The position numbers and the translations under genes were made by a program. The notes under the pieces are model-generated. The model searched no databases. It was not told where the DNA came from and worked only from the letters and a program-made list of their open reading frames with translations. From Gammaproteobacteria bacterium (GTDB lineage: Bacteria; Pseudomonadota; Gammaproteobacteria; Steroidobacterales; Steroidobacteraceae): 16,242 nucleotides of DNA. Below are positions 698 to 16,242 of this stretch, in pieces. Within the stretch, counting starts at the first letter, position 1; each line of letters starts with the position of its first letter. Location of the stretch: assembly GCA_029857655.1 (NCBI GenBank), contig JAOUGR010000006.1, positions 1 through 16,242 on the forward strand. Direction: 5' to 3'.

Positions 698-724
698 CGA
701 GTATTCTTCACGCGGTGGGCCAAC

Positions 725-1113
<389 letters not shown>

Positions 1114-1117
<4 letters not shown>

Positions 1118-2277: not shown

Positions 2278-3319
2278 CCTCGTCGTCACGATCGCATGGC
2301 GCAGCGCCATGATCGCGGCGCTCGCCTCCGCGCTGATGCTCACCTTTGCTTTGATCGTGCGACGCTACCTGCATTGGCAGGATCGCGTCCAGGCTCGGGT
2401 CGCCGCCAGATGGAGGCCGCTGCTCACGCAGATCGCGATCGAGGAGCAGGGCTTCATCGAGTTGCCACGACTGCGCGCCCGGCATGTGCCGTTCCTGCTG
2501 GAAGAGTGGAATGCGCTGCATGACGCCGTGCGTGGCGAGTCAACCGCCAGGCTCAACGAAACAGCACTGCGGCTCGGCCTCGACGAAATCGCGCGTCACC
2601 TGATGAATTCGCGCGAGGTCGGCAAGCGGATCCTGGCAATCCGCACGCTCGGCCACCTGCGCGATGCGACGGCCTGGAAGACGCTGCAGGAGCAGCTGGT
2701 TTCGGCGAATGCACTGGTGTCCTTCTACGCCGCTGCGGCGCTGGTGCGGATCGACGCCCAGCGCGCAATGCCCGGCATCATGCTGCAGGTGGCGGAGCGC
2801 GAGAGCTGGCCCGGCGAGGCGATGTCGCGGCTGCTGGTGGACGCGGGCGCCGATGTGGCGCGCGAGCCGATCCGCGCGCTGATGCTTTCGCTCGAGCCCG
2901 CCAAGGTGCCGCCGCTGTTGCCCTGGCTCTCCCACGTGGACGCGGTGCTCGGCAGCGAAGTCGCGACCGAACTGTTGCGCCGCCACGCGGGCGACGATGA
3001 CATCGTCGCCGCCGCGCTGCTGGTGCTGCTGGAGCCCGCAATGCTGCCGGAAGTGCGGCACTACGCGAGTTCTACGGACGCCGACGTCCGCGAGCACCTG
3101 GCGATCGCGATCGGCAACCTGGGCGATCTCGACGAAATGGCACTGCTGATGCGGTTGATGGGCGATCGTGTCTGGTGGGTCCGTTACCGTGCCGCGCAGG
3201 CACTGTTGAAACTCCGGGGCATGAATGCGGGGTTGCTGGAAACGGTGCCCGCGCGACTCACCGATCCGTTTGCGCAGGACATGCTGAAGCACGTGCGGGC
3301 CGAGGCCGCGCTCGGATGA
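2255..3319 (+). CDS. Membrane-anchored HEAT-repeat protein
   Basis: A 354-residue protein with one hydrophobic helix at residues about 13-37, followed at once by basic residues (R-R-Y-L-H-W-Q-D-R), which predicts a cytoplasmic C-terminal part by the positive-inside rule. From about residue 100 onward it is made of HEAT/Armadillo-type helical pairs, for example K-R-I-L-A-I-R-T-L-G-H-L, D-V-R-E-H-L-A-I-A-I-G-N-L-G and V-R-Y-R-A-A-Q-A-L-L. HEAT solenoids are usually protein-binding scaffolds. The frame begins at TTG 2255, 23 nt inside the YaiO gene; the first in-frame ATG is at 2309 and would cut into the membrane helix, so TTG is preferred although its ribosome site is weak. The stop overlaps the glycosyltransferase start (ATGA at 3316-3319). 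I infer that it bridges the synthase and the export apparatus; no enzyme motif is visible. Confidence 0.8.
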   Translation: MDFNTGSDLVVTIAWRSAMIAALASALMLTFALIVRRYLHWQDRVQARVAARWRPLLTQIAIEEQGFIELPRLRARHVPFLLEEWNALHDAVRGESTARLNETALRLGLDEIARHLMNSREVGKRILAIRTLGHLRDATAWKTLQEQLVSANALVSFYAAAALVRIDAQRAMPGIMLQVAERESWPGEAMSRLLVDAGADVAREPIRALMLSLEPAKVPPLLPWLSHVDAVLGSEVATELLRRHAGDDDIVAAALLVLLEPAMLPEVRHYASSTDADVREHLAIAIGNLGDLDEMALLMRLMGDRVWWVRYRAAQALLKLRGMNAGLLETVPARLTDPFAQDMLKHVRAEAALG

Positions 3320-4716
3320 ACCTGCGCGTGGCACTCGAGGGTGTGCAGTGGCTGTTTCTCGGCTACTTCATCGTCCTGAACAGCATTTACCTGGGGCTTG
3401 CATTCATGGCGCTGTTTGGCCTGCGCCGCTACATGAGGGGTATCAGTGTTGCCGAGCGCGTGTACTCGCACCTGCAGATGCCGATTTCGCTGGTCGTGCC
3501 CGCATACAACGAGGCGGCAACCATCGTAACCTCGATCCGCGCGCTATTGCAGCTGCGCTACCAGCACTTCGAGGTCATCATCGTCAACGACGGCTCGAAG
3601 GACGACACGCTTGCTGTCATCGAGCGCGAGTTCAAGCTGCAGCCGTTCCCCGAAGCCTACCGGGTCCAGATCAAGACCAAGCCAGTACGTGGTGTTTACC
3701 GGTCGCTGACGCATCCCAACCTGCGTGTGATCGACAAGGAGAATGGCGGCGGCAAGGCGGATGCCACGAATGCCGGCATCAACGCGGCACGCTATCCCAT
3801 CTTTTATTGCGGCGACGCCGACTCGGTGCTCGACCCGCACAGCATGGAACACGTCGTGCGGCCATTCCTCGAGGACCCGCGCACCGTGGCCTGCGGCGGC
3901 ACGGTGCGGATCATCAACGGCTGCAAGGTGCGCGGCGGCGTGCTGGAAAAGGTCGGGCTGCCGCGCAATCCGCTGGCGCTGGTGCAGGTGGTCGAGTACC
4001 TGCGGGCATTCCTGGGCGGGCGACTCGGCTGGAGTGCGATCAACGGCATGCTGATCGTTTCCGGCGCATTCGGCGTATTCCATCGCGACACGGTGGTCGC
4101 CGCCGGTGGATTCCGCGCCGACGTGATCGGCGAAGACATGGAAATGACGGTCCGGCTGCATCGCAAGCTGAGCGAGCGCGGCGTGCGTTATCGGGTGGCG
4201 TTCATTCCCGATCCCGTGTGCTGGACCGACGCGCCGGAGGACGTGGCTACGCTTGCCAAGCAGCGCAAGCGCTGGCACCGCGGGCTGGCAGAGAGTCTGT
4301 GGGGAAACCGCAAGCTCTGCTTTGCGAAGAACAGCGGCTCCGCGGGCTGGGTCGCATTCCCGTTCTTCGTGCTGTTCGAACTGTTGAGCCCGGTCATCGA
4401 GGTAGGCGGGTTCCTGGTCATGGGCCTGGCATTGGCGCTCGGCATGATGACCGGCACCTCATTCCTGGCATTCGTCGCGGCGGCATTCGCACTGGGCGTG
4501 ATGCTCTCGACCACGGCCCTGCTGCTCGAGGAACTTTCGTTCCATACCTACCCGAAGGCGCGTCATGTGCTGGCGCTCTTTGTGGTCGCCATCCTCGAGA
4601 ACTTCGGTTACCGGCAGGTCATATCGGTGTGGAAACTGCAGGCACTCTACGGCTGGCTCACCGGCCGGCGCATCCCGTGGGGCGACATGAAACGCAAGGC
4701 CAACTGGCAACAGTAA
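3316..4716 (+). CDS. Membrane glycosyltransferase family 2 (PgaC/HmsR/NodC-like polysaccharide synthase)
   Basis: A 466-residue GT2 enzyme that would transfer sugars from a nucleotide-sugar to a growing glycan at the cytoplasmic face of the inner membrane. An N-terminal membrane helix (residues about 11-37) is followed by the GT-A core: P-A-Y-N-E, then N-D-G-S with Asp92, the metal-binding D-A-D (Asp167, Asp169), G-E-D (Glu273, Asp274) and Q-R-K-R-W (316-320), the Q-x-x-R-W motif of processive synthases. Several hydrophobic segments fill residues about 350-440. This layout matches poly-beta-1,6-GlcNAc synthases and relatives, but the substrate cannot be read from sequence. The ATG at 3316 overlaps the HEAT stop; earlier in-frame starts would lie inside that gene. 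No deacetylase, PilZ domain or second synthase subunit is present nearby. Chitin-oligomer or hyaluronan-like products are alternatives. Confidence 0.9.
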   Translation: MNLRVALEGVQWLFLGYFIVLNSIYLGLAFMALFGLRRYMRGISVAERVYSHLQMPISLVVPAYNEAATIVTSIRALLQLRYQHFEVIIVNDGSKDDTLAVIEREFKLQPFPEAYRVQIKTKPVRGVYRSLTHPNLRVIDKENGGGKADATNAGINAARYPIFYCGDADSVLDPHSMEHVVRPFLEDPRTVACGGTVRIINGCKVRGGVLEKVGLPRNPLALVQVVEYLRAFLGGRLGWSAINGMLIVSGAFGVFHRDTVVAAGGFRADVIGEDMEMTVRLHRKLSERGVRYRVAFIPDPVCWTDAPEDVATLAKQRKRWHRGLAESLWGNRKLCFAKNSGSAGWVAFPFFVLFELLSPVIEVGGFLVMGLALALGMMTGTSFLAFVAAAFALGVMLSTTALLLEELSFHTYPKARHVLALFVVAILENFGYRQVISVWKLQALYGWLTGRRIPWGDMKRKANWQQ

Positions 4717-4719
4717 CCG

Positions 4720-5361
4720 TCAGCCGCGGTGCCAGCGGCTCCCGGCCCAGGCGAAAATCCCCGGCGAGATCGAGAGCAGCACGATCAACACGATCACGAT
4801 GCTCAGGTTCTGCCTGACCCACGGAATGTTGCCGAAGAAAAAGCCGGCGAGGCTCAGCGATACAACCCACAGCACCGCCGCCACGACGCAGTAGCCGAGG
4901 TAGCGCAGGTAGGGCATGGCGCCGATGCCCGCGACGAATGGCGCGTAGGTGCGGATGATCGGGATGAAGCGCGCCAGGATGATGGTCTTGCCGCCGTGGC
5001 GCTCGTAGAAATCGTGGGCACGCGCGAGATGCGCCGGGTTGAACCAGCGCGAACGTTCGTAATGGAATACCTTCGGCCCGACCAGCCGTCCGACGCCGTA
5101 ATTGACGTTATCCCCGGTCAGCGCCGCAGCGATCAGCACGATCATGAGTGTCGCGATATCCATCTCACCGGCGGCGGCCAGCGTACCGCTGACGAACAAC
5201 AGTGAATCTCCCGGCAGGAACGGCCAGACCACGAGGCCGGTTTCGATGAACACGATCAGGAACAGGATCGCGTAGATGCCGGTGTGATACTCGGCGACCA
5301 GCGCCTGCAGGTGCACATCGAGGTGCATCGCGATGTCGAGCAGCGAGGCTAGCAGGTCCAT
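4720..5361 (-). CDS. DedA family inner-membrane protein
   Basis: A 213-residue polytopic membrane protein of the DedA/SNARE-associated (VTT) superfamily, whose members are linked to membrane lipid (undecaprenyl-phosphate or phosphatidylethanolamine) translocation, proton-motive-force homeostasis and antibiotic tolerance. It shows the F-I-E-T-G and F-L-P-G-D-S stretch of the first re-entrant region (Glu40, Asp52), G-D-N-V-N-Y-G-V-G-R, and the second region A-R-F-I-P-I-I-R-T with Arg131 and Arg137. These four residues sit at nearly the positions of the essential acidic and basic residues reported for E. coli YqjA (family knowledge). The start at 5361 has no good ribosome site but gives the usual family length. 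Its stop codon is 3 bp from the convergent glycosyltransferase stop. It may be the last gene of the minus-strand run or have its own promoter. Confidence 0.92.
   Translation of the reverse strand: MDLLASLLDIAMHLDVHLQALVAEYHTGIYAILFLIVFIETGLVVWPFLPGDSLLFVSGTLAAAGEMDIATLMIVLIAAALTGDNVNYGVGRLVGPKVFHYERSRWFNPAHLARAHDFYERHGGKTIILARFIPIIRTYAPFVAGIGAMPYLRYLGYCVVAAVLWVVSLSLAGFFFGNIPWVRQNLSIVIVLIVLLSISPGIFAWAGSRWHRG
4722..4740. terminator. Possible stem-loop at the convergent gene junction
   Basis: AGCCGC (4722-4727) and GCGGCT (4735-4740) form a perfect 6-bp stem with a 7-nt loop, 5 nt after the glycosyltransferase stop and inside the last codons of the convergent DedA gene. No T-run follows on either strand, so it is at best a weak or bidirectional terminator. 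Confidence 0.3.
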
Positions 5362-5374
5362 CGGTGGATTCTAG

Positions 5375-5410
5375 CGAATCCCCGGCCATCCAGCCGCGCG
5401 GCCGGATTCG
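5375..5410. terminator. Inverted repeat between the beta-propeller gene and dedA
   Basis: CGAAT-CC-CCGGCC (5375-5387) pairs with GGCCGG-ATTCG (5400-5410): an 11-bp stem interrupted by a 2-nt bulge, with a 12-nt loop. It fills most of the 55-bp gap between the end of the beta-propeller gene and the start of dedA on the minus strand. No T-run follows, so it could be an attenuating or mRNA-stabilising stem or an operator rather than a classical terminator. Confidence 0.4.
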
Positions 5411-5416
5411 CTCGAG

Positions 5417-6343
5417 TCAGGGTGTCGGATTTCCCCAAATCGGCGACCACTGCGTCAGCGGCTGATCCAGCACCAGTGTTGCGGTACCGCCGGCGGTACT
5501 GATCAGGAAAAGATTGTAATCTCCGGTCGCGTCCACCCTGGCGACAGCGAGCAGATCGCCGCCCGGCCACCAGGCCGGGTGAATGAGTGCGTTGGTCGAG
5601 GCGCTGATGGTGAGCGCATGCAGGTCTGTGCCGTCCGCATTCATGATCATGATCTCGGTGTCGATGTGCGCGCCACCGCCGGTCTGCACGCTCTCGAATG
5701 CGATCTTCGTGCTGTCTGCGGACCAGGTCGGGTGAAATTCATCCGTGGATGGCCTGTTGGTCAACCGGACGTCACCTGCGCCGTCGATGCCCATCACGTG
5801 AACTTCGAGATCCTGCGCGCCGTCGCAATTCGTCACGTACGCGATCTTCGTACCGTCGGGTGACCAGGCGGGATCGCTGTCGAAGCAAGTATTGCGCGTC
5901 AACTGCCTCGGGTCATTGCCATTGGGCCTGATCTTGAAGATTTCCATGTCTCCATCCTGATCGGTGGCATAGGCGATCTGGTTTCCGTCCGGATCCCAGC
6001 TCGGCAGGCGGTCCATTTGCGGGCCGCTCGTGATCTGGGATACATTGCTGCCATCGGCGTTCATCACGTAAAGATCAAAATCCCCCGTCCGGTTCGACGC
6101 GAACGCAATCTTCATCTCCTGCTGGTTCCAGTCTGCATCCATGTCATCGCCAAAGCTCTGCGTCAGGTTGACGGGCGTACTCGATGCCGTGCCGCGATCC
6201 ACCACCACGTCCCAGATCTCGAAGCCGGCGGGCTGGGTATTGTTCTGCCCCTCGTAGATGACATGGCCCTTGGCATTTGGGCCGCCGCCGCAGGCAACGC
6301 AGGAAGTGGCCGCACAAAGCAGGATCAGGCTGCGGATATTCAT
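5417..6343 (-). CDS. TolB-like (PD40) beta-propeller lipoprotein
   Basis: A 308-residue exported protein. The N-terminus M-N-I-R-S-L-I-L-L-C is a signal peptide ending in a Cys cluster (A-T-S-C-V-A-C-G-G-G); Cys18 or Cys15 would be the lipidated residue, though neither fits the strict lipobox perfectly. The mature part has about five PD40/WD40-like repeats of the form P-x-W-S-P-D-G-x-x-I-A-Y followed by D-x-x-I-x-x-M-N-A-D-G-x-x-x-x-x-L-T, as in the TolB propeller. It lacks TolB's N-terminal domain, so it is not TolB itself but a surface or periplasmic propeller lipoprotein, perhaps a binding module. I chose the ATG at 6343 because of its signal peptide and a strong GGAGGGG site 7 nt upstream; longer in-frame starts would overlap the upstream transporter gene. 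It follows that gene by 58 bp on the same strand. Confidence 0.85.
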   Translation of the reverse strand: MNIRSLILLCAATSCVACGGGPNAKGHVIYEGQNNTQPAGFEIWDVVVDRGTASSTPVNLTQSFGDDMDADWNQQEMKIAFASNRTGDFDLYVMNADGSNVSQITSGPQMDRLPSWDPDGNQIAYATDQDGDMEIFKIRPNGNDPRQLTRNTCFDSDPAWSPDGTKIAYVTNCDGAQDLEVHVMGIDGAGDVRLTNRPSTDEFHPTWSADSTKIAFESVQTGGGAHIDTEIMIMNADGTDLHALTISASTNALIHPAWWPGGDLLAVARVDATGDYNLFLISTAGGTATLVLDQPLTQWSPIWGNPTP

Positions 6344-6350
6344 TTCGACG

Positions 6351-6357
6351 CCCCTCC
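6351..6357 (-). promoter_or_regulatory. Ribosome binding site of the beta-propeller lipoprotein gene
   Basis: GGAGGGG on the minus strand, 7 nt before the ATG at 6343. It fixes this start against the longer open frame upstream. Confidence 0.75.
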
Positions 6358-6401
6358 GATTGAAATCATCGGACCGACCGAATCGTACACCCGGTGGCAA
6401 C

Positions 6402-7460
6402 CTAGGCAAACACGACCAGGCACCATAGCAATGCGCACAAGCCGGTGAGCAGTGCTGCCAGGAAGGACAGCAGGATCGGACGCCAGCCGGCCTCGCGCAG
6501 ATGCGAGACAGTGACGCCGAGTCCGACCGCGGCCATGCCACAGAGCAGCAACCATTCGGATGCCAGGTTGGCGAGCGCCAGGAATTGTTGCCACCGTGGC
6601 AGCCAGTGCGCCGATTCGCCGCTCGCGCCATCGCCCAGCGTGCGCAGTACGACAAAGCCGATGAAGAACAGCACGAATGCAGGCACGGCTTTGCGACGCA
6701 GGCCCTGCGGCAGCTGCGCCGGCTGGCCGCCATCGCCGCGCGCGCCCCACCATGCGGCCAGCGGCACGAGCAACAAGAGCCCGAGCGTGCGCATGAATTT
6801 CGTGAGCCCGGCGATCGGCACGGCTTCAGGCGCACCGAACTGCTGCGCATATATCAGTGATGCGCCGACGACCTGCGAGGTGTCGTGGATCGAGGCACCG
6901 AAGAACATGCCTGCCGTAACGGGAGCGTCAAATAGCGCCCCGGCAAGCCACGGGTAGCCGATCATCGCCATCGAGCCGAACAGCACGACACAGGTGAGCG
7001 CGACGCCGATGTCGGCCTTGCGCGCATGCAGCAGCGGCGCGACCGCGATGATCGCGGTGCAGCCGCAGATCGCGGTTCCCGCTGCCAGCAACTGGCGCAT
7101 CACCGGCGCGACACCGAGCAGGCGGCCGATGCCGATCGCCGCGGTGATCGCAACTGCGACACAGGACAGCACGACGGGAACCGCCATCAGGCTGACGTCG
7201 CCGAGCACGGCGAGCGTCAGGCGCAGCCCGATCAGCGCAATACCGGCGCGCAGCAACGACTGGCCCGCAAATTCGAGGCCGCGCTCGGCCCAGGCACCGA
7301 CACCCAGCACATTCCGCCACAGCACACCGAGCAGAATTGCGCAGAGCACGGCGCTGATGGCGCCGCCAGTGGCATATGAGGCAACTTTCGCGACGATGGC
7401 GAGTGCGGCCGCGAATGCGAGACCGGGCAGAGTCGCCTGTATGAGTCCGCCGCTCGTCAC
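6402..7460 (-). CDS. yeiH: YeiH/UPF0324-type putative sulfate exporter family membrane protein
   Basis: A 352-residue protein with about ten hydrophobic segments. Family marks are G-I-A-L-I-G-L-R-L-T-L, the G-T-A-I-C-G-C-T-A-I stretch and G-A-S-I-H-D-T-S-Q-V-V-G-A, which identify the YeiH/putative sulfate exporter (PSE) family of inner-membrane proteins. The substrate is not established for most members; the sulfate or sulfonate label comes from a few relatives. The start is GTG at 7458-7460 and has no clear ribosome site, but it lies 3 bp after the amidohydrolase stop, so translational coupling is likely. YeiH genes are often paired with a LysR regulator; none is present here. The next gene on the strand is the propeller lipoprotein. 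Confidence 0.88.
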   Translation of the reverse strand: MTSGGLIQATLPGLAFAAALAIVAKVASYATGGAISAVLCAILLGVLWRNVLGVGAWAERGLEFAGQSLLRAGIALIGLRLTLAVLGDVSLMAVPVVLSCVAVAITAAIGIGRLLGVAPVMRQLLAAGTAICGCTAIIAVAPLLHARKADIGVALTCVVLFGSMAMIGYPWLAGALFDAPVTAGMFFGASIHDTSQVVGASLIYAQQFGAPEAVPIAGLTKFMRTLGLLLLVPLAAWWGARGDGGQPAQLPQGLRRKAVPAFVLFFIGFVVLRTLGDGASGESAHWLPRWQQFLALANLASEWLLLCGMAAVGLGVTVSHLREAGWRPILLSFLAALLTGLCALLWCLVVFA

Positions 7461-7463
7461 GGG

Positions 7464-8876
7464 CTAATGCAGGGATTTCATCAGTACGTCGGGATCGTAG
7501 ATCTTGCCGTCCTTGATGACGCGATAGATGCGGCCAAGATTGCCGGTGTCCGCCAGTGGGTCGGCATCGAGAATGACCAGATCGGCCAGCCTGCCGGCCT
7601 CAATCACGCCAAGGTTCTTTTCCATCCCGAGCGCCTTCGCGCCATCGGTCGTTGCACTTCTCAGAACCTGGAGCGGTGTCAGCCCGGATTCCTGCATCAG
7701 GCGCATTTCGCGCAGGATCGAGGGCCCGTGCAATGTGCCGATATTGCCGGCATCGGTGCCCATCACGATCGTGATGCCCGCATCCAGCAGCTTGCGCAGG
7801 TTCTGCATGCCGACGGTCGGCGCCGCAGGAGGCTTGGCTTCGGCCATCAGCTTCGCCACCAGTGGGGGCCGCTCGTCCGCCGGAATGTCATTCAGGTCGT
7901 CCATCGCGGCGAGAATCTCCGGGTCGGCACGGCGCTGCTCTTCGGGCGTGGCGTGCCACTGGTTCGACAGCGCGAGCGGGTAACCCTGCATGACGAAGAA
8001 TGTCGGGCAATAGATCACCTTGTTGCGGCGCGCGAGTGCGATGAATTCATCGTCCACAGGCGCATCGAACACCGAATGCACCAGGTAATCGGCTCCGGCG
8101 CGCAGCGCGGCCTTGGCGACGACGAGTTCCGTTGCATGGACCGCGAGCTTCTTGCCTGCTGCATGTGCGGCATCGCCCGCGGCCTTGACGATCGCCTCCT
8201 GCGCGGCCAGGTCATCGCCCGGCTGGTGGATGAACCACACCTTGATGTAATCCGGATTGCGCTCCAGCACTCGCTTCACCAGCGCAAGGCCTGCCTCTAC
8301 TGAATCGATGCGGATGATCGGCGGATCGCCCAGATCCAGCTGCGGGCGCGCGACCATCGAGATCAGTGGTCCTGCGACCGCCATGCGCGGTGCCGCGGCA
8401 ACCGTGGCAGCCCTGTCGCGTACCTCGAAATTCCAGAATGGCCCGCCGATGTCCACCACGCCGGTCACGCCATTCGCGAGCCAGACCCTGAAGGTCGCAT
8501 CGAGCCGCGCCTGGTTGCGCGCAACTTCCTCGGCGTAGGGCACGACGGCATTGAAATCTGCGACATCCGGTCGCGTGTAGAGATTGCCGGACTGGAAGAA
8601 ATGCACGTGCGCATCGACCAGCCCCGGTACCACGTAGCGGCCGCGGCCATCGATGACCGTGGCGCCCTGGGTCAGTTCGATTGCGGCGTGCTGGAGCACG
8701 GCCTCGATGCGCTGACCCTGGATGATGACCGTCGAGTCCGGTTCCAGGACGGCGGCGCCCTCGCGTTCCGGATGCACGACCGTAACGCCGGTAATATAGA
8801 TAGTGTCCCTGCCGGGCTGGGCCTGGGCGGCGGTGGCGAGGAAGGCGATTGAGGCGATCAGCAGTTGGCGGAACAT
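7464..8876 (-). CDS. Exported metal-dependent amidohydrolase
   Basis: A 470-residue amidohydrolase-superfamily enzyme with a Sec signal peptide (residues 1 to about 19, ending A-A-Q-A). The metal ligands are visible in order: His90 and His92 in D-A-H-V-H-F, Lys212 in Y-I-K-V-W (probably the carboxylated bridging lysine), His247 in V-H-A-T-E, His267 in L-V-H-S-V and Asp375 in G-T-D-A-G-N. This set is typical of the imidazolonepropionase/Xaa-Pro dipeptidase-like branch acting on cyclic amides or dipeptides; the exact substrate is not readable. The C-terminal part closes the small beta domain with G-R-L-A-D-L-V-I-L-D. The ATG at 8876 has an AGGGAG site 5 nt upstream. It is divergent from the M3-like peptidase (21 bp between starts) and 3 bp upstream of the YeiH gene. 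Exported hydrolase and peptidase together suggest peptide or amide scavenging. Confidence 0.9.
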   Translation of the reverse strand: MFRQLLIASIAFLATAAQAQPGRDTIYITGVTVVHPEREGAAVLEPDSTVIIQGQRIEAVLQHAAIELTQGATVIDGRGRYVVPGLVDAHVHFFQSGNLYTRPDVADFNAVVPYAEEVARNQARLDATFRVWLANGVTGVVDIGGPFWNFEVRDRAATVAAAPRMAVAGPLISMVARPQLDLGDPPIIRIDSVEAGLALVKRVLERNPDYIKVWFIHQPGDDLAAQEAIVKAAGDAAHAAGKKLAVHATELVVAKAALRAGADYLVHSVFDAPVDDEFIALARRNKVIYCPTFFVMQGYPLALSNQWHATPEEQRRADPEILAAMDDLNDIPADERPPLVAKLMAEAKPPAAPTVGMQNLRKLLDAGITIVMGTDAGNIGTLHGPSILREMRLMQESGLTPLQVLRSATTDGAKALGMEKNLGVIEAGRLADLVILDADPLADTGNLGRIYRVIKDGKIYDPDVLMKSLH

Positions 8877-8881
8877 AGACG

Positions 8882-8887
8882 CTCCCT
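8882..8887 (-). promoter_or_regulatory. Ribosome binding site of the amidohydrolase gene
   Basis: AGGGAG on the minus strand, 5 nt before the ATG at 8876. It lies inside the 21-bp gap between the two divergent start codons, leaving no room there for promoters. Confidence 0.6.
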
Positions 8888-8897
8888 GGATAGCACC

Positions 8898-10541
8898 ATG
8901 CGGATCATATTACTTCTCGGCCTGCTGCTAGGCAGCGCAAGCATTGCGAGTGCCGCCGACGCCAACCCCGTCGAGGCGGCCGAGACGACATTCCTAGATT
9001 TCCTCGACGCGGCGAATGCCGTGGGCGCCATCGATTCCGGTCTTTTCGCCGAATACCAGGGCCGCGGCCGGGCCATCTGGGATCAGTTGCAGCGCAACTG
9101 GCAACCGGCGCTGACGGAGCAACTTGCGGCCATCGACCCGGCCGCGCAGTCGCCGGCCGACCGGGCCGCCATTGCGGCAATGCGCGTGACGCTTGCGGAT
9201 TTCGAGGATCCCAGCGCAGCGACGTCCGGGACGCCGGAAGCGCCCAGGTGCGCCGACGCTCCGCGTACCGATCTCGACTACGCGGCACTCCGCGCCGCGC
9301 TGGTCGGTTGCTTCCGGGAATTCGGCAATGCACTTCGATTCGAAGACGGTCTCGTCGATCGTGGGACGGCCTTGCAACTGCTCCATGACATCCCAGAGCC
9401 CGAACGGCGCAAGGCACTCTTCGATGCATTCCGGCCGATGTGGTCGGCGCTCAATGGCAACAATGAACCGGGTAGCCCCTACAGCCGCATGATCCGGATG
9501 GCCGCGGCGGACGCGGCGGAGAACGGCTCGCAGGTGGATGCCGCAGCACGTGCCATCGGCGTCTCGACTGCGGAGGTCGAAAAATGGCTGCTGCAGATCC
9601 TCGAGGCATGGCGTCAGGCGAATGGGCCCGCAATGGTCGAGCCCTGGGATTATCGTCACTCGATCGGGGAGGCCAATCGCATGCTCGCGGCGAAAATCCC
9701 TGCCACGGAACTGGTGCCGCTCAACGAGCGCTTCTATCTCGATCTCGGCTCGGATCTCGAGAAGCTCGGCGTCGTCTATGACCTCGGCGAACGCGCGGAC
9801 AAGTCGCCGCTGGCCTACACGGATTTCCTCAAACGCGGGCGCGAAATCGATGGCGAATGGCATCCCACGATCGCGCGCGTCGTTGGGCGCTATCCGCTCG
9901 GTGGATTGTTCTCGCTGAACGAACTCGTGCACGAGAATGGCCACGCCGTGCATATATCCGCCATCAAGAATCGGCCGGCATTCACGGACTGGCCGGATAC
10001 GATCTTCACCGAGGCCTTCGCCGACGTCCCGTCCTGGAGCGTGTACGAACCCGCATGGCAGAAAAAATATCTCGGCACTGCATTGCCCGAGGCGCTGACG
10101 CTGCGTGCGCTCTACGGAACCGTGGTGCTGGACGTCGCCTGGTCGCTGTTCGAGATCCGCATGCTGCGTGAACCCGCCGGCGATCCCAATGCCGTGTGGA
10201 CCGACATCACGAGCAGGTACCTGCGCATCAAGCCGCATCCGGAGCTGCCCTGGTGGGCGATGCGCGTGCAACTCGCAAGCCGACCCGGCTACATGGTGAA
10301 TTATGGGCTGGGCGCGGTGCTCACCGCCGAGATCCGCGCAGAGACGCGCAGCGCGATCGGCGACTTCGATGCCGGCAATGCCGCCTGGTATGGCTGGAAC
10401 ACCGATCAGCTGCTCAGGTACGGATCGGAGCACAGCGCGAAGGTGTTGATGCTCGCACTGCTCGGGCGCGCGCCGTCACCGGAGGCCGTGCTGGCCCAGA
10501 TCCGGCGGATTCACGGCGTTCTGGACCCGGCAGCGACTTGA
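8898..10541 (+). CDS. Exported M3-like zinc metallopeptidase
   Basis: A 547-residue enzyme with a clear signal peptide (M-R-I-I-L-L-L-G-L-L-L-G-S-A, cleavage near A-S-A-A). The zinc site H-E-N-G-H-A-V-H (His345, Glu346, His349) plus Glu372 in T-E-A-F-A-D, 27 residues after the first His, fits the gluzincin arrangement of peptidase family M3 (thimet oligopeptidase, oligoendopeptidase F), which cleaves short peptides. The rest is largely helical, as expected for M3. It is shorter than typical M3 enzymes (often 600-700 residues) and exported, whereas many M3 enzymes are cytosolic, so it may be a divergent branch; an M2-like assignment is less likely because H-E-x-G-H-A-x-H is the M3 form. I chose the ATG at 8898 because the 11-residue longer start would overlap the divergent amidohydrolase and spoil the signal peptide. 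Confidence 0.85.
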   Translation: MRIILLLGLLLGSASIASAADANPVEAAETTFLDFLDAANAVGAIDSGLFAEYQGRGRAIWDQLQRNWQPALTEQLAAIDPAAQSPADRAAIAAMRVTLADFEDPSAATSGTPEAPRCADAPRTDLDYAALRAALVGCFREFGNALRFEDGLVDRGTALQLLHDIPEPERRKALFDAFRPMWSALNGNNEPGSPYSRMIRMAAADAAENGSQVDAAARAIGVSTAEVEKWLLQILEAWRQANGPAMVEPWDYRHSIGEANRMLAAKIPATELVPLNERFYLDLGSDLEKLGVVYDLGERADKSPLAYTDFLKRGREIDGEWHPTIARVVGRYPLGGLFSLNELVHENGHAVHISAIKNRPAFTDWPDTIFTEAFADVPSWSVYEPAWQKKYLGTALPEALTLRALYGTVVLDVAWSLFEIRMLREPAGDPNAVWTDITSRYLRIKPHPELPWWAMRVQLASRPGYMVNYGLGAVLTAEIRAETRSAIGDFDAGNAAWYGWNTDQLLRYGSEHSAKVLMLALLGRAPSPEAVLAQIRRIHGVLDPAAT

Positions 10542-10573
10542 GTGCACTGTAGCGGCCGAGCCGCGATGACTTG

Positions 10574-10580
10574 GGAGAGG
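10574..10580 (+). promoter_or_regulatory. Ribosome binding site of the mddA-like gene
   Basis: GGAGAGG, 6 nt before the ATG at 10587. It supports this start over the longer in-frame ATGs at 10542 and 10566. Confidence 0.7.
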
Positions 10581-10586
10581 GGGCGC

Positions 10587-11315
10587 ATGAAAAAATTTGC
10601 AATCTTCCTGTACGGGATTCTTTGCTACGTACTTTTCCTGGGGACGTTCCTGTACATGATCGGTTTCATCGGCAATCTCTGGGTGCCGAAAGGCATTGAT
10701 TCGCCGGCCATTTCGCCAACCGGCCAGGCCCTGCTGGTCGACCTCGCGCTGCTCGCGGTCTTTGCCGTGCAGCACACCATCATGGCGCGGTCGGCGTTCA
10801 AGCGCGGGATCAGGAAGATCATTCCGCCTGCGGCCGAGCGCAGCACATACGTGCTGGCCTCGAGCCTCGCGCTGATCCTGCTGGTCTACTACTGGCAGCC
10901 GCTCGGCGGCATGGTCTGGCAGGTCACGGCGCCGGCTGGTGTCGCCGTGCTGTATGCGCTGTTTGCAGCCGGCTGGGCATTGCTGCTCTACAGCACGTTC
11001 CTGATCAATCACTTCGACCTGTTTGGCCTGCGCCAGGTATGGCTCTCCCTGCAGGGGCGCGAATATACGCCGGTCAAATTCGTCCAGCCCTGGCTTTACA
11101 GCAAGATTCGCCATCCGCTGTATGTCGGGTTCTTTATCGGGTTCTGGGCGACACCCACGATGACCATCACGCATCTCGTTTTCGCGGTGATGGCCTCGGC
11201 GTACATCGTGGTCGGCACGCTGTTCGAAGAACACGACCTGAAGATCTTCCATCCGGAATATGCGGAGTACGCGAAGAAAGTGCCGCGCTATATTCCGCGG
11301 CTGATGCGCCGCTGA
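10587..11315 (+). CDS. mddA: MddA-like methanethiol S-methyltransferase (NnrU/ICMT-type membrane protein)
   Basis: A 242-residue membrane protein with five or six hydrophobic segments. MddA methylates methanethiol with S-adenosylmethionine to give dimethyl sulfide (family knowledge). Supporting features are V-Q-H-T-I-M-A-R, the E-R-S-T-Y-V-L stretch, the amphipathic segment N-H-F-D-L-F-G-L-R-Q and the C-terminal S-K-I-R-H-P-L-Y-V-G followed by F-E-E-H-D-L. The R-H-P-x-Y-x-G and E-E cofactor-binding pattern is shared with isoprenylcysteine methyltransferases and the NnrU family, so a different thiol or isoprenoid substrate remains possible; length and the E-R-S-T-Y motif favour MddA. It sits 45 bp after the peptidase gene and 38 bp before the PQQ dehydrogenase on the same strand, with no obvious functional link to either. 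Confidence 0.72.
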   Translation: MKKFAIFLYGILCYVLFLGTFLYMIGFIGNLWVPKGIDSPAISPTGQALLVDLALLAVFAVQHTIMARSAFKRGIRKIIPPAAERSTYVLASSLALILLVYYWQPLGGMVWQVTAPAGVAVLYALFAAGWALLLYSTFLINHFDLFGLRQVWLSLQGREYTPVKFVQPWLYSKIRHPLYVGFFIGFWATPTMTITHLVFAVMASAYIVVGTLFEEHDLKIFHPEYAEYAKKVPRYIPRLMRR

Positions 11316-11353
11316 GCTGCCGGGTCGTTGAATCGGGTGCTTCACGGCGTAGA

Positions 11354-13474
11354 ATGACGTCCATGAGGCGTTCACTCTGCCTCGTCGCGCTGGCCGGGAT
11401 CACCGCCAGTAGCGTCTGTCTCTCCGCTGCCACCGGCTGGTCCCACCCTGGCGGCGACGCCGGCGGCATGCGCTACACGCCGGCGGCCGAAATCACGCCG
11501 GAAAACGTCGATAGACTCGTTCCAGTCTGGACCCATCGCACCGGCCACATGCAGGCGCCGGAAGACGCGCGCGAGCGCTCGAAATTCGAGGTGACTCCGA
11601 TACTCGTCGAAGACAGGCTGGTGCTGTGCACGCCATTCAACGTGATCATCGCGCTCGATCCGGCCACCGGCGTCGAGATCTGGCGCCACGATCCGAAAAT
11701 CGACATGGAGCAGCGGCCCGCGAATGGCTACATCTGCCGCGGTGTCGCCTATTGGCGCGACAGCCAGGCGCCGCCCGATTCAAAGTGCGCGGTACGCATC
11801 TACACGGGCACCAATGACCATCGGGTCATTGCCGTGGACCTGGCAGACGGAAAGCGTTGTGAGGATTTCGGCAGCGGCGGCGAAGTCGTCATCGAGCCCG
11901 AGGTCACGCTCGAGTGGCCGGGCGAGTATCAGATCACCTCGTCCCCGGTCGTCGTCGGCGACACGGTGATCGTGGGCTCGGCCATTTCCGACAACATGAG
12001 CGTCAAGGCGCCGCGCGGCACCGTGCGCGCCTTCGATGCCCGGAGCGGCGCGCCGCGCTGGGCGTTCGACCCGGTGCCGCGCGATGCGGCGGCGGCCGAA
12101 GCGCAGGGCTGGCACGGCGAGGCGCTTCCGGTCGAAGGCCACGCCAATGTTTGGGCGCCGATGTCGGTTGATGAAACGCGCGGCCTGGTGTTCCTGCCGA
12201 CCTCGAGCCCGAGCCCCGACTTCTATGGCGGCCTGCGCCCGGGCGACAACCGCTACGCCGATTCCGTGGTGGCGCTCGATGCCGCAACCGGCGCGGTGCG
12301 CTGGGCCTTTCAGACCGTCCATCATGATGTGTGGGACTACGACATCGCGGCGCAGCCGCTGCTCGCGACGATCAAGGTGGAGGGCGCCGCGCGGGACGTC
12401 GTCATCCAGCCTACCAAGATGGGCCTCATCTTCACGCTCGATCGCGATACCGGCCTGCCGGTCATCCCGGTGGAAGAGCGTCCCGTTCCGCAAGACGGCG
12501 TCGCCGGGGAAGCTCTCTCGCCGACCCAGCCATTCCCGGTTCGCCCGCGCCCATTGTCGGACTCGACCATCACGCCGGAAGAAGCCTGGGGATTCACGCC
12601 CTTCGACCGCAGAGCCTGCGCGCGCCAGATCGAATCGGCGCGGCGCGACGGGCTCTACACGCCGCCTTCGCTGCAAGGCTCCATCGAATTTCCGTTCACG
12701 GCCGGCGGCGTCAACTGGGGCAGCGCCGCATTCGACCCGGCGACCAACCGCCTGTACGTGAATACCTCCAGCATGATGCATCGCATCACGCTGGTCCCGC
12801 GCGCCGAGACCGATGAGGAATGGCACCCCTTGCCTTATGGCGAACACGCGCCGATGAACGGCGCGCCCTACGCGATGCAACGGGTGACCGTGATGAGCCC
12901 GCTGGGGATTCCCTGCAACCCGCCGCCCTGGGGCCTGCTGCACGCGATCGACATGGAGAGCGGAGAAATCGCGTGGGAGTCCGTGCTCGGCACCACCGAG
13001 GAAATCGCTCCGCTCGGTTTCGCGATGCACACCGGCACGCCGACCTCGGGAGGCCCGCTGGTCACCGCCGGCGGCCTGGTCTTCATCAGCGCGACCATGG
13101 ATTACTACCTGCGCGCTTTCGATGCGAAGACGGGCGCCGAGTTGTGGCAGGGCAAGCTTCCCGCCGGTGGCCAGGCTAACCCGATGAGCTACATGTATGA
13201 AGGGCGCCAGTACGTGGTCATAGCTGCCGGTGGTCACAAGGAAATGGAAACCCGGAAGGGCGACTACGTCATCGCCTATGCCCTGCCGCGCGCCGGTGAA
13301 GCGGGGCCGTCGCTGGTGTCGCGAATCCTTGACCGGCCGGGCCGCTGGTTCTACGTGAAAGCAGGCCTGGAACTAATTCTCCTGGCGGCGATCGGATGGG
13401 GTATCCGGTGGCTGGTTCGCCGGCGCCGTGCCAGACGCCGTCGCGATTTCATGGAGCAATCCACCGGCGATTGA
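11354..13474 (+). CDS. PQQ-dependent dehydrogenase, membrane glucose/quinate dehydrogenase family, with C-terminal anchor
   Basis: A 706-residue quinoprotein. After a signal peptide (residues 1 to about 27) comes an eight-bladed propeller: the entry motif G-G-D-A-G-G-M-R-Y-T-P, several A-x-D-x-x-T-G-x-x-x-W blade motifs, H-H-D-V-W-D-Y-D (323-330), which carries the likely catalytic Asp, and P-T-K-M-G with Lys355, which matches the PQQ-contacting Lys of E. coli Gcd. W-G-F-T-P-F-D is typical of the Gcd/quinate dehydrogenase branch rather than of methanol dehydrogenases. There is no cytochrome c motif (C-x-x-C-H). Unlike Gcd, which has five N-terminal membrane helices, this protein ends in one helix (665-688) and an Arg-rich tail, so the propeller is periplasmic and anchored at the C-terminus. 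The substrate (sugar, quinate or other polyol) is unknown. An alternative ATG lies at 11363. No pqq biosynthesis genes are visible. Confidence 0.9.
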   Translation: MTSMRRSLCLVALAGITASSVCLSAATGWSHPGGDAGGMRYTPAAEITPENVDRLVPVWTHRTGHMQAPEDARERSKFEVTPILVEDRLVLCTPFNVIIALDPATGVEIWRHDPKIDMEQRPANGYICRGVAYWRDSQAPPDSKCAVRIYTGTNDHRVIAVDLADGKRCEDFGSGGEVVIEPEVTLEWPGEYQITSSPVVVGDTVIVGSAISDNMSVKAPRGTVRAFDARSGAPRWAFDPVPRDAAAAEAQGWHGEALPVEGHANVWAPMSVDETRGLVFLPTSSPSPDFYGGLRPGDNRYADSVVALDAATGAVRWAFQTVHHDVWDYDIAAQPLLATIKVEGAARDVVIQPTKMGLIFTLDRDTGLPVIPVEERPVPQDGVAGEALSPTQPFPVRPRPLSDSTITPEEAWGFTPFDRRACARQIESARRDGLYTPPSLQGSIEFPFTAGGVNWGSAAFDPATNRLYVNTSSMMHRITLVPRAETDEEWHPLPYGEHAPMNGAPYAMQRVTVMSPLGIPCNPPPWGLLHAIDMESGEIAWESVLGTTEEIAPLGFAMHTGTPTSGGPLVTAGGLVFISATMDYYLRAFDAKTGAELWQGKLPAGGQANPMSYMYEGRQYVVIAAGGHKEMETRKGDYVIAYALPRAGEAGPSLVSRILDRPGRWFYVKAGLELILLAAIGWGIRWLVRRRRARRRRDFMEQSTGD

Positions 13475-13518
13475 TTCGGGTCAGTCGCACCGTCTACGTG
13501 GAGTGCTAACCTTTTTCT

Positions 13519-13523
13519 GGAGG
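13519..13523 (+). promoter_or_regulatory. Ribosome binding site deciding a TTG start
   Basis: GGAGG, 7 nt before TTG 13531. It supports TTG as the start of the thioredoxin-like gene. The 56-bp gap before this gene is also the most likely place for the promoter of the downstream operon, though I cannot identify a convincing -35/-10 pair. Confidence 0.7.
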
Positions 13524-13530
13524 TTGCGCA

Positions 13531-14028
13531 TTGCGCACCGAATACCCACGGAATCCTGTCCGCCGCCGGCTCCTGGCAGTTCTGACGCTGTCACTGTCGC
13601 TAATTGCAGACAGCGGCACGGCTGCAACCGCGCCGGCCACGCCAGACTGGCCACTCCTGAAGAGCTATTCCGGCAAGGTCGTGCTGGTGGATTTCTGGGC
13701 GTCCTGGTGCGGTCCGTGCCTGCGTTCGTTTCCATGGATGAATGATTTGCAACAGCATTACGGCGGCGATGGTCTCGTCATCGTCGCAGTCAATCTCGAC
13801 CAGGAGCGCGCGCTCGCCGACACATTCCTGCAGAAACTTCCGCCGAAGTTTCGGGTCGAATTCGACGCCGCGGGCAATATCGCGCGGCAGTTCGGCGTCC
13901 AGGTGATGCCATCGAGTTTCCTGGTCGACCGCCACGGCCAGGTGCGCGTGCGCCACGCCGGCTTTCGTGACGGCCAGCGTGCCGAGCGCGAAGAGCAGAT
14001 CAAGCAACTGCTGAGGGAATCCCCGTGA
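13531..14028 (+). CDS. TlpA/ResA-like exported thioredoxin
   Basis: A 165-residue thiol-disulfide oxidoreductase. Basic residues R-R-R at 11-13 are followed by a hydrophobic stretch to about residue 31, a signal peptide or membrane anchor, so the thioredoxin domain faces the periplasm. The active site is W-C-G-P-C (Cys60, Cys63) in V-D-F-W-A-S-W-C, and the cis-proline loop is V-M-P-S-S. The domain resembles TlpA/ResA, which reduce disulfides in apocytochromes or metal-centre proteins. The start is TTG with a strong GGAGG site; no in-frame ATG precedes the active site. The stop overlaps the GTG start of the next gene (GTGA at 14025-14028). Because the next gene encodes a lipoprotein with a paired-Cys tail, that protein is a natural candidate substrate (inference). 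Confidence 0.9.
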   Translation: MRTEYPRNPVRRRLLAVLTLSLSLIADSGTAATAPATPDWPLLKSYSGKVVLVDFWASWCGPCLRSFPWMNDLQQHYGGDGLVIVAVNLDQERALADTFLQKLPPKFRVEFDAAGNIARQFGVQVMPSSFLVDRHGQVRVRHAGFRDGQRAEREEQIKQLLRESP

Positions 14029-14243
14029 ACCGACTGCGCCAATGCCTCCTGTTCCTGATTGCGCTTGGCGGCTTCGCACTCGGCGGCTGCGCGACGGTCG
14101 AGCCCTGGGAGCGCGACCTGCACGCACGCGAAGACATGCGCCCGAACGAGCACGATGCGGCGATCGACGATCACATCTATTTCAGCAAGGAGGCATCGAG
14201 CGGTGGACGTGGCTTTGCCGGGGGCGGCTGCGGATGCAACTGA
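14025..14243 (+). CDS. DUF4266 small lipoprotein with Gly/Cys C-terminal tail
   Basis: A 72-residue lipoprotein precursor. The signal ends in a good lipobox L-G-G-C with Cys22 as the lipidated residue, leaving a mature chain of about 51 residues. That chain has V-E-P-W-E-R, then H-I-Y-F-S-K-E-A-S-S-G-G and a tail G-G-G-C-G-C-N (Cys69, Cys71). These are the marks of DUF4266, a family of unknown function that I recall being encoded beside DUF3570 and ApbE genes, as here. The start is GTG, with a GAGGGA stretch about 7 nt upstream, and overlaps the thioredoxin stop; the codons of the Cys tail overlap the start of the DUF3570 gene by 10 nt. Possible roles are metal or heme binding or a thioredoxin substrate; none is established. 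Confidence 0.85.
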   Translation: MNRLRQCLLFLIALGGFALGGCATVEPWERDLHAREDMRPNEHDAAIDDHIYFSKEASSGGRGFAGGGCGCN

Positions 14244-15541
14244 AGAAGCCGATCGGCGCCACGCTCGCGAGCGCCACCTGCAGCCTGCTCGGCGCGCTGC
14301 CGGCCGCGCCGGTCGCCGCCCAGGAAGTGCCGACCTGGCAAGTGGACACGGCGCTCCTTTATTACGGCGAGGACGCGGGCCGCGTCAGCGATGGGAGCCT
14401 GGCGACCTCCATCCGTCGCGTGCTCGACGAGGACCGCAGCTTCAGCCTTAACTTGACGGTGGACGCATTGACCGGCGCCACGCCGAACGGCGCCGTGCCC
14501 AGCAACGGCGTGCAGACCTTCACGAGCCCTTCCGGCGGGGAAAGCTACCGGGTCGCTGCGGGCGAAGCGCCGCTCGACCCCAACTTCAAGGACACGCGCG
14601 TCGCGCTTTCCGGCAGCTGGCAGCAGGCGCTCGGCGATTCGATGCGCTGGAATGTGGGATTCAGCGGCTCGGACGAAATGGACTATCTGCATCTCGGGCT
14701 CGACACGCGGCTCGAACGCGACTTCAACCGCCGCAACACCACGGTCTTTGTCGGCGCCGCCTACGGCCGGGATGAAGTCAGGCCTCTGGGCGGTGCGCCC
14801 ATCGGATTCTCACCGATGATCCCAAGCGTGGGTGGGGGCGAAGACGACGAAGGCGAGGGCGAGGGGGGCGAGACGAAAGACGTCATCGACGCGCTCATCG
14901 GCGTGACGCAGATACTGAGCCGCCGCTCACTGGTGGAGGTTGCGCTCTCCTACGGGAAGAGCGACGGTTATCTGACCGATCCCTACAAGATCCTGTCGGT
15001 CGTCAGTCCGGTCACCGGTGCGCCGGTGCCGGGACCGGTGGGCAGCGGTCTCAACCTGTATCTTCACGAGCAGCGCCCGGATACCCGCACCAAGCAGAGC
15101 GTGTTCGCGGAGTGGCGTTACGCCTTCGATCGCGATTCGCTGGCGATCAGCTATCGGCTGATGGACGACGACTGGGGCGTGACCTCGAACACGGCGGAGG
15201 CCCGCTACCGCTGGAACATCTCGGAGAACAATTACCTCGAGCCGCACCTGCGCTACTACAAGCAGGGCGCCGCGGATTTCTATCGCACCGTGCTGTTCGC
15301 CGGCGCGCCGCTGCCGCAGTTCGCGTCGGCTGATTACCGCCTGGCGGACAACGAGACCTATACGGCCGGCATCAAGTACGGCCATCGAACCGAGCGGGGC
15401 GAGTTCTCCGTGCGTCTCGAGTACTACCACCAGACCGCAACCCCTTCACCGGGATCCGCCATCGGCGATCTGGCGAACTTCGACCTCGTTCCGCCCTTGA
15501 ACGCGGTGATTGCGCAATTTGGCTACAAATCCAGCTTCTGA
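14234..15541 (+). CDS. DUF3570 outer-membrane-type beta-barrel protein
   Basis: A 435-residue exported protein with a signal peptide (residues 1 to about 30, ending V-A-A-Q). The mature part is a series of amphipathic beta-strands and polar loops ending in F-G-Y-K-S-S-F, with the terminal Phe of outer-membrane barrels. Near the N-terminus lies V-D-A-L-T-G-A-T-P-N-G-A (Asp77 to Thr83 is D-A-L-T-G-A-T); I recall this region as conserved in DUF3570, and it matches the Dxx(S/T)GA(T/S) consensus flavinylated by ApbE. A strongly acidic low-complexity loop (residues about 200-216, Gly/Glu/Asp) is probably surface exposed. The ATG at 14234 has a GGGGGCGG stretch upstream and overlaps the DUF4266 gene by 10 nt. 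Family function is unknown; the operon suggests a redox or metal-related envelope role. Confidence 0.87.
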   Translation: MQLKKPIGATLASATCSLLGALPAAPVAAQEVPTWQVDTALLYYGEDAGRVSDGSLATSIRRVLDEDRSFSLNLTVDALTGATPNGAVPSNGVQTFTSPSGGESYRVAAGEAPLDPNFKDTRVALSGSWQQALGDSMRWNVGFSGSDEMDYLHLGLDTRLERDFNRRNTTVFVGAAYGRDEVRPLGGAPIGFSPMIPSVGGGEDDEGEGEGGETKDVIDALIGVTQILSRRSLVEVALSYGKSDGYLTDPYKILSVVSPVTGAPVPGPVGSGLNLYLHEQRPDTRTKQSVFAEWRYAFDRDSLAISYRLMDDDWGVTSNTAEARYRWNISENNYLEPHLRYYKQGAADFYRTVLFAGAPLPQFASADYRLADNETYTAGIKYGHRTERGEFSVRLEYYHQTATPSPGSAIGDLANFDLVPPLNAVIAQFGYKSSF

Positions 15542-16242
15542 TTACGCTCACGAGCGCGGCCTGTGGCGCTTTGAGTTCGAGTCGATGGCGAGCCCCTGCG
15601 TCGTGCTGTGCGAGTCGGAGGACACCGAGTATCTGCGCCGCCTGGCCGCGTTCGCGCGCGCCGAGTCGGCACGGATCGACCGGAAATTCAGCCGCTACCG
15701 CACGGACAGCGTCGTGCACGCGCTGCATTCGAGCCGCGGCAAGCCATTTCGCGTGGATGACGAGACCGCGCGCCTGCTCGAGTTCGGCGCGTCACTGTGG
15801 AAGCTGAGTGAGGGCCGCTTCGACCTGACCTCCGGCGTGCTGCGCCACGCCTGGCGCTTCGACGAAGGACAGTGCGAGGCAGACCCGGCGCGGATCCCGG
15901 GGCTGCTCGGGCGCATCGGTTGGCAGCGCGTGACCTGGCAGCCGCCATTCATCACATTGCCGGAAGGCATGGAGATCGACTTTGGCGGCATCGGCAAGGA
16001 GTACGCGGTCGATCGCGTCGCGGATTGGGCGGCAATCCAGTCGGACTGCCCGTTGCTCGTGAACTTCGGCGGCGACCTGCGCTGTTGCGGGTCACCGCCG
16101 CGAAGCGGCGCCTGGATGGTTGGCATCGAGTCGATCGAGAATTTTGGCCAGGCCGCGCGCCGCATCGAGCTGAAATCCGGTGCGCTCGCAACCAGCGGCG
16201 ATGCGCGCCGCTCGATCGAGATCGACGGCAAGCGCTACGGTC
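15519..16242 (+). CDS. apbE: ApbE-like FAD:protein FMN transferase, partial (3' end beyond right edge)
   Basis: ApbE moves FMN from FAD onto a Thr or Ser of a target protein, using magnesium. The roughly 240 residues present show the family marks in order: M-A-S-P-C near the start, F-D-L-T-S-G-V-L-R, D-F-G-G-I-G-K-E-Y-A-V-D-R (the flavin-binding region), L-V-N-F-G-G-D-L-R and L-A-T-S-G-D-A-R-R. The frame opens after a TGA at 15507-15509. TTG 15510, TTG 15519 or ATG 15585 are the possible starts; I prefer a TTG, which overlaps the DUF3570 gene by about 23 nt, because the ATG lies inside the conserved M-A-S-P-C strand. None of these gives a signal peptide or lipobox, whereas many Gram-negative ApbE proteins are periplasmic lipoproteins. 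The C-terminal part is outside the window. Confidence 0.9.
   Translation, partial: MATNPASDYAHERGLWRFEFESMASPCVVLCESEDTEYLRRLAAFARAESARIDRKFSRYRTDSVVHALHSSRGKPFRVDDETARLLEFGASLWKLSEGRFDLTSGVLRHAWRFDEGQCEADPARIPGLLGRIGWQRVTWQPPFITLPEGMEIDFGGIGKEYAVDRVADWAAIQSDCPLLVNFGGDLRCCGSPPRSGAWMVGIESIENFGQAARRIELKSGALATSGDARRSIEIDGKRYG

Follow-up and report, generated by a model that had tools for sequence, protein, structure and literature searches.

A predicted outer-membrane flavoprotein of the DUF3570 family and a leaderless ApbE clade that may load its flavin before export

The last four genes of a 16,242-nucleotide stretch of DNA from a gammaproteobacterium of the Steroidobacteraceae (GenBank assembly GCA_029857655.1, contig JAOUGR010000006.1, positions 1 to 16,242; hereafter the window, or G000:C53:1-16242, G000 being its genome) form an operon on the forward strand encoding a thioredoxin, a DUF4266 protein, a DUF3570 protein, and the flavin transferase ApbE, i.e., all four genes of the Trx/DUF4266/DUF3570/ApbE cluster, with overlaps between adjoining genes. 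The first gene (13531..14028) specifies a TlpA/ResA-like thioredoxin with a WCGPC site and a likely N-terminal signal peptide, which matches the Pfam families Redoxin, AhpC-TSA, and Thioredoxin_8. It is followed by a DUF4266 lipoprotein (14025..14243; PF14086, E value 2.4e-18) that ends in GGGCGCN, a dithiol CGC tail. DUF3570 (14234..15541; PF12094, E value 1.6e-124, 416 bits) is a predicted outer-membrane barrel and, by homology, an acceptor of flavin mononucleotide (FMN). The partial ApbE gene (15510..16242; PF02424, E value 6.6e-43, 147.6 bits) encodes a leaderless flavin adenine dinucleotide (FAD):protein FMN transferase and ends with the contig, its frame being still open at the last base of the window (16242). 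Among 67 related loci, DUF3570 has DUF4266 as a neighbor in 63, ApbE in 51, and an upstream thioredoxin in 48; 44 loci combine all three, and some loci end at contig edges.

The original prediction proposed that this DUF3570 protein carries an ApbE-type flavinylation motif, D-A-L-T-G-A-T, at residues 77 to 83 and that the overlapping downstream gene encodes ApbE. Both observations stand: D77-A-L-T-G-A-T83 (14462..14482, with the codon of the acceptor Thr83 at 14480-14482) matches the pattern strictly, as no other site of the protein does, and the next gene, which overlaps DUF3570 by 32 bases, matches the ApbE family. When the window protein was shuffled 20,000 times, the strict pattern D..[ST]GA[ST] turned up in 134 of the products, so the motif alone is merely suggestive and the matter is settled by conservation. 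Among the best 120 of 3,101 proteins, that of the window included, the motif with Ala, Ser, Gly, or Pro at position 6 is found in 120/120 and the strict form in 118/120. In alignment A1 (n = 58), column 77 is invariably Asp (58/58) and column 81 Gly (58/58), column 82 holds Ala (46), Ser (6), Gly (5), or Pro (1), and column 83 is Ser (31) or Thr (27), i.e., a possible acceptor in 58/58; variability of Asp77 or Thr83, which had been named as evidence against flavinylation, is thus not what the family displays. Every intact aligned row of the 67-locus set likewise combines the Asp with a Ser/Thr acceptor, L058 being frameshifted and L066 and L068 truncated.

A broader collection of 183 DUF3570-like frames reduces to 133 unique ones, of which 127 (103 type I and 24 type II) have the motif; this count, made with types assigned from motif context and with a loose pattern that allowed Gly/Ser/Asn/Thr at position 5 and Ala/Ser/Gly/Pro/Asn at position 6 and took the best among the first six hits, leans toward a match, which the aligned columns do not. 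The six remaining frames are the two frameshifted pieces of L058, two truncated proteins, and two variants with Glu or Gln for the Asp that keep [ST]GAS. Loci L088-L090, considered as a negative control lacking both motif and apbE, proved to encode type II proteins with DxxS[SNG]AS[IV]D. No motif-free DUF3570 clade was found among the loci collected, and 20 of the 103 type I proteins keep the motif without a nearby apbE, so cooccurrence of the motif with a neighboring apbE does not discriminate. PF12094 matches occurred in 20/299 genomes of a phylum sample and 66/117 of an order sample; in the latter, strong type I-like matches (E value below 1e-100) were confined to 13 genomes, the rest being mostly type II relatives. 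Plasmid records yielded three distant Vibrio relatives (23% identity), viral contigs none, and a sequence search of PDB none either. Pfam recognized only DUF3570 in the window protein, with no FMN_bind domain.

That a DUF3570 protein is covalently flavinylated, the central inference of the original prediction, was already known from work published in 2021 by Meheust et al. (eLife; PMC8238504, cited throughout from the part of its text available to us). In that study, the Chlorobium luteolum protein was flavinylated by its cognate ApbE upon coexpression in Escherichia coli, and the modification was lost only when both Ser acceptors were changed to Ala, with flavinylation read on pelleted protein purified under denaturing conditions. 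The inference accordingly holds for the family and extends to the window protein by homology. The same work aligned 228 DUF3570s, described DsbD/Trx/DUF4266 clusters and the CXC tail of DUF4266, counted 316 clusters without DsbD, and proposed a hybrid thiol/flavin chain with DsbD as the electron source. The window operon comprises the same four gene families, with DUF3570 as the predicted ApbE substrate, and represents the form without DsbD: no DsbD gene lies in the cluster, and G000 has its sole DsbD_TM match elsewhere, on contig C162. It therefore falls outside the strict DsbD system definition of PMC8238504. Its thioredoxin also differs, with matches to Redoxin and related families and PF13899 not among them, as does its DUF3570, which has a single acceptor. 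In the second motif, N85-G-A-V88 (14486..14497), Gly86 and Ala87 are invariant in A1 and the acceptor position, five residues beyond Thr83, is Val. This position is Thr or Ser in 31/103 type I proteins and 11/58 rows of A1, and in 0/120 of the proteins closest to the window (best 120 of 3,101). The two motifs described in the available text of PMC8238504 are thus a property of a subset and do not define the DUF3570 class. According to the accessible portion of PMC12052999, a seven-residue motif is enough for ApbE targeting, and in another ApbE target replacement of the Asp by Ala had minor effects and Gly-to-Ala and Ala-to-Val substitutions cut flavinylation to about half, from which it follows that motif variants need not be inactive.

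The operon ApbE, as the original prediction noted, has no export signal. Its earliest start is the TTG at 15510, and an in-frame TGA (15507-15509) lies immediately 5' of it, which makes a signal peptide impossible in the gene as it stands. What had been raised as an objection to flavinylation turned out to be a trait of a whole ApbE clade and loses its weight as counterevidence. Leaders were scored as a hydrophobic 12-mer with a mean Kyte-Doolittle value of at least 1.9 within up to 60 residues before the core. Within 3.5 kb of type I DUF3570s we collected 88 distinct ApbE frames, or 87 after removal of L037:3594, a canonical lipoprotein ApbE that is 3.4 kb from a DUF3570 having its own neighbor. 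No hydrophobic leader was detected in 86/87, the exception (L177) having been read upstream of a plausible start. Leaders were present in 9/9 type II-linked ApbEs (three on the other strand) and in 47/50 other ApbEs, and the three without one include the type II ApbE of G246 (L133) and L162, which reaches 1.84. As for lower cutoffs, all 102 usable type I DUF3570 N termini have a hydrophobic 12-mer at 1.0 and 92 at 1.5, and of the 77 linked ApbEs staying under 1.9, 9 reach 1.0 and 1 reaches 1.5. G331 (candidate division Zixibacteria) and its relatives with DUF3570, 11 in all, each carry a linked leaderless ApbE gene, incomplete in one case; two of the 11 loci repeat L041 and L043. The lack of a signal peptide is, as far as hydropathy predicts export, a conserved feature of the type I ApbE clade.

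This clade is also distinct in phylogeny and active site. In a quick-method tree, 83 type I ApbEs, one of them (L118, the G102 gene) labeled by hand, lie on one side of a single branch with a Shimodaira-Hasegawa-like approximate likelihood ratio (SH-aLRT) support of 99. The available text of PMC12052999 gives the ApbE catalytic triad as Ser241-His257-Asp285. In our alignment, type I ApbEs have Ser in 82/82 and His in 82/82 at the first two positions and Gly in place of Asp in 82/82. At the Asp285 equivalent, type II ApbEs have Asp (6) or Glu (2) and the others Asp (49) or Glu (2), with a single Ala for Ser among the latter. The window ApbE ends before the triad His and Asp positions.

To ask which ApbE serves DUF3570, we counted ApbE matches in 69 genomes, i.e., the 19 phylum-sample hits other than G000 and 50 picked from the 67 loci. 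The DUF3570-linked leaderless ApbE is the only one found in 2/19 and 7/50 of them (9/69), and the two from the phylum sample, G102 (a single contig) and G231, are both rated 100% complete. DUF3570 keeps the Asp and the acceptor in all nine sole-ApbE genomes, with Ala (4), Gly (4), or Pro (1) at motif position 6. Neither these nine genomes nor G000 gave an FMN_bind match (10 of the 11 genomes tested were without one).

Type II DUF3570s belong to a second conserved cluster (L130-L134, L185-L198, L215-L221), in which a divergent DUF3570 with DxxS[SGN]AS[IV]D is accompanied by DUF4266-like and thioredoxin genes; in several loci, exported ApbEs adjoin it or lie at a distance of as much as about 12 kb. 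By Pfam, L134 also specifies outer-membrane-protein barrel, SH3, and TPR proteins and a protein of ~910 amino acids with a hydrazine synthase alpha middle domain, and L130 has an ExbB-like gene. In G337 (Manganitrophus, the genome of L051), an exported ApbE gene stands beside that of a DUF4266-like protein ending in CGCEQ (L161:1351-3169), perhaps another variant.

Hydrophobicity alternation over A1, followed by hand, suggests 16 strands, with short turns at residues of about 66, 134, 165, 230, 300, 331, and 388 and a C-terminal Phe. As both ends of outer-membrane barrels are usually periplasmic, Thr83 is predicted to open extracellular loop 2. The concern that the acceptor might lie in a barrel strand or be buried in the membrane is not borne out by this topology, which places Thr83 past a strand end. 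The zone reaching 8 residues from the predicted periplasmic turns and termini takes in 125 of the 402 mature residues but none of the 35 invariant ones, and 2/402 circular shifts do as well at this distance; at a distance of 10, the figures are 3/35 invariant residues and 157/402 mature residues. Because conservation was visible when the turns were placed, this bias is support and not proof, and it holds for the invariant set only, since 10/36 nearly invariant mature residues fall within 8. If Thr83 does sit at the start of the loop, insertion of the barrel would make it inaccessible to a periplasmic enzyme, and this would favor earlier loading.

The best explanation for these data, to which we assign a probability of roughly 0.56 as a whole, is that DUF3570 is an outer-membrane beta-barrel with one FMN on Thr83, loaded in the cytosol, displayed at the outer mouth, and supplied by thiols. 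Flavinylation has been established by others for the family and would extend to the window protein. The leaderless ApbE would act in the cytosol, attaching FMN to the DUF3570 precursor before it folds; the precursor would then cross Sec and be inserted by the beta-barrel assembly machinery (BAM). Once the barrel has folded, the flavin would sit where extracellular loop 2 begins, at the outer mouth. Reducing equivalents from DsbD may reach it by way of the exported thioredoxin and of DUF4266, an outer-membrane lipoprotein with a flexible CGCN tail, and the flavin would hand electrons to an acceptor on the cell surface or outside the cell. The DUF4266 tail reads CGCN in 111/116 unique frames, three more ending in CGCY, CGCL, or CGCEQ and the remaining two DUF4266-like frames (L051, L211) being apparently out of frame; a role of this tail as electron donor to the flavin is plausible conjecture. 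A full DsbD adjoins the operon in L007. A bolder version of the scheme, in which the system is a heme-free outer-membrane electron conduit, with FMN loaded in the cytosol by an altered-site ApbE and carried through Sec and BAM to the outer mouth of a 16-strand barrel, and with the Gly-rich CGCN tail of the lipoprotein threaded through the lumen to reduce it there for delivery to extracellular acceptors, is speculative and, taken in full, rather doubtful.

Several observations weigh against cytosolic loading and a surface-exposed flavin. Barrel topology was assigned by hand from sequence, and export was judged by hydropathy and not by SignalP. The choice of partner for the DUF4266 tail is guesswork, and DsbD_TM, found in 10/10 genomes tested, occurs also in 10/14 control genomes and hence says little. 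Gly at the Asp285 equivalent suggests that type I ApbEs may work differently, Gly or Pro occupies motif position 6 in 5/9 sole-ApbE genomes, and the available text of PMC8238504 can be read as describing a signal peptide on the C. luteolum ApbE. The 20 unique type I DUF3570s with a motif and no apbE in the stretch examined include several whose stretch ends at a contig edge and five (L016, L030, L042, L046, and L053) whose stretch extends 7 to 8 kb; no apbE was found in the 14 to 15 kb around the type I DUF3570 of L202 and L210 either. Such long stretches imply that the enzyme is encoded elsewhere in the genome or that DUF3570 is unmodified there.

It could instead be that another, exported ApbE flavinylates DUF3570 in the periplasm while the leaderless operon ApbE acts elsewhere or not at all. 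A partial gene for an exported, type II-like ApbE (IMGTRIVVEVW; L070, G000:C199) is present in G000, at least two ApbE matches occur in 16/19 and 42/50 genomes (58/69), and the type II DUF3570 relatives near exported ApbEs indicate that the superfamily does have a periplasmic route. The sole ApbE of G001 is exported and unlinked, yet its DUF3570 has the motif; G299 also has one, exported ApbE, its DUF3570 contig ending before any apbE. The lack of the Asp285 equivalent in the leaderless clade (Gly in 82/82) points the same way, but the Ser241 and His257 equivalents are kept without exception, the nine genomes (one of them a single contig rated 100% complete) that have only a leaderless ApbE retain Asp and acceptor in DUF3570, and, as far as the text of PMC8238504 at hand goes, the cognate ApbE modified DUF3570 in the E. 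coli cytosol. We regard this periplasmic route as unlikely. Export of the leaderless ApbE itself by a hitchhiking or otherwise unknown route, so that it works in the periplasm, would accommodate the export of other ApbEs and the fact that its location here is only predicted; set against the absence of a hydrophobic leader in 86/87 and the cytosolic precedent in Klebsiella described in the available part of PMC12052999, it seems highly improbable.

Two further alternatives concern the site itself. DUF3570 may be flavinylated with the site facing the periplasm, or the periplasmic side of the lumen, for periplasmic redox chemistry and not for the cell surface. The location of the site is a prediction from topology, thioredoxin and DUF4266 are both expected in the periplasm, and Asp77 would point into the lumen in the strand pattern, all of which would suit such an arrangement; the path from the N terminus through strand 1 to loop 1, the short turns after even strands, the C-terminal Phe, and the clearance of all 35 invariant residues from the periplasmic side argue for the opposite face and leave this arrangement improbable. 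Alternatively, DxxTGAT could be a structural turn in a protein without flavin, an idea fed by the frequency of the strict motif in shuffled sequences, by its retention where no apbE is near, and by the predicted status of the flavin on the window protein. Conservation of the acceptor, the usual linkage to apbE, and the flavinylated homologue with its Ser-to-Ala substitutions (PMC8238504, as available) make it very unlikely.

Cytosolic loading by a leaderless ApbE, which we prefer, has a partial precedent. In the portion of PMC12052999 available to us, a Klebsiella pneumoniae ApbE likewise without signal peptide flavinylates a target with the same motif; that target is a soluble cytosolic fumarate reductase, whereas DUF3570 bears a signal peptide and its predicted destination is the outer membrane. 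The FMN-binding domains of NqrC and RnfG (PF04205) have motif and chemistry in common with DUF3570 but differ in that the window protein lacks FMN_bind by Pfam. For NqrC and RnfG, moreover, the modifying ApbE is an exported one. Like MtrCAB-type multiheme outer-membrane conduits, DUF3570 would pass electrons through an outer-membrane barrel, a hypothetical transfer that would use a flavin and a dithiol tail instead of heme. Flavinylation before export is absent from the titles and abstract openings found in literature searches on cytoplasmic ApbE and on ApbE with the Sec translocon. The available text of PMC8238504 nowhere uses the term "cytosolic ApbE" and does not mention leaderless ApbE, the Asp-to-Gly change, barrel topology, or the type II cluster either. 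What looks new is that the ApbE of this family has no export signal, which suggests that the flavin is attached before export; such early loading by a clade with an altered triad and the likely surface position of the flavin are the points of most interest.

Other features of these loci deserve mention. A pyrroloquinoline quinone (PQQ)-type dehydrogenase with a C-terminal hydrophobic helix is encoded directly 5' of the operon (11039-13474). It was considered as an operon member and rejected: among the related loci, its profile matched only the window and its copy L001, a comparison in which the closest relative, L002, ends before reaching so far upstream. At the DUF4266 stop/DUF3570 start overlap (14234-14243), the CN-stop codons are also read as MQL, and this overlap may be why an MQL start is common in many DUF3570 relatives. 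In the DUF3570 signal peptide (14234-14320 and relatives), a Cys recurs within A[TS]C, a context that does not match a lipobox. The apbE of the nearest relative (L002:1587-2003) diverges after ~30 residues, which indicates a broken gene or a misassembly. In a Zhongshania metagenome-assembled genome (L015:7294-11552), thioredoxin, DUF4266, and DUF3570 genes are duplicated in tandem ahead of one ApbE gene. L233, L234, and L235 are second DUF4266/DUF3570 copies, with no apbE or thioredoxin gene within the ~4 kb examined and a full operon elsewhere in the same genomes. G102, whose only ApbE is leaderless, has a DUF3570 frame of 912 amino acids (L140:7266-10004), roughly double the normal size.

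Attachment of the flavin before export, if confirmed, would make DUF3570 an unusual envelope protein that crosses Sec and BAM with a covalent redox cofactor in place, and the cell would be spared exporting FAD. An ApbE clade that lacks the triad Asp and is bound to one substrate family offers a clean enzymology test. Should the site be surface exposed, such operons might do with flavin what cytochrome conduits do with heme.

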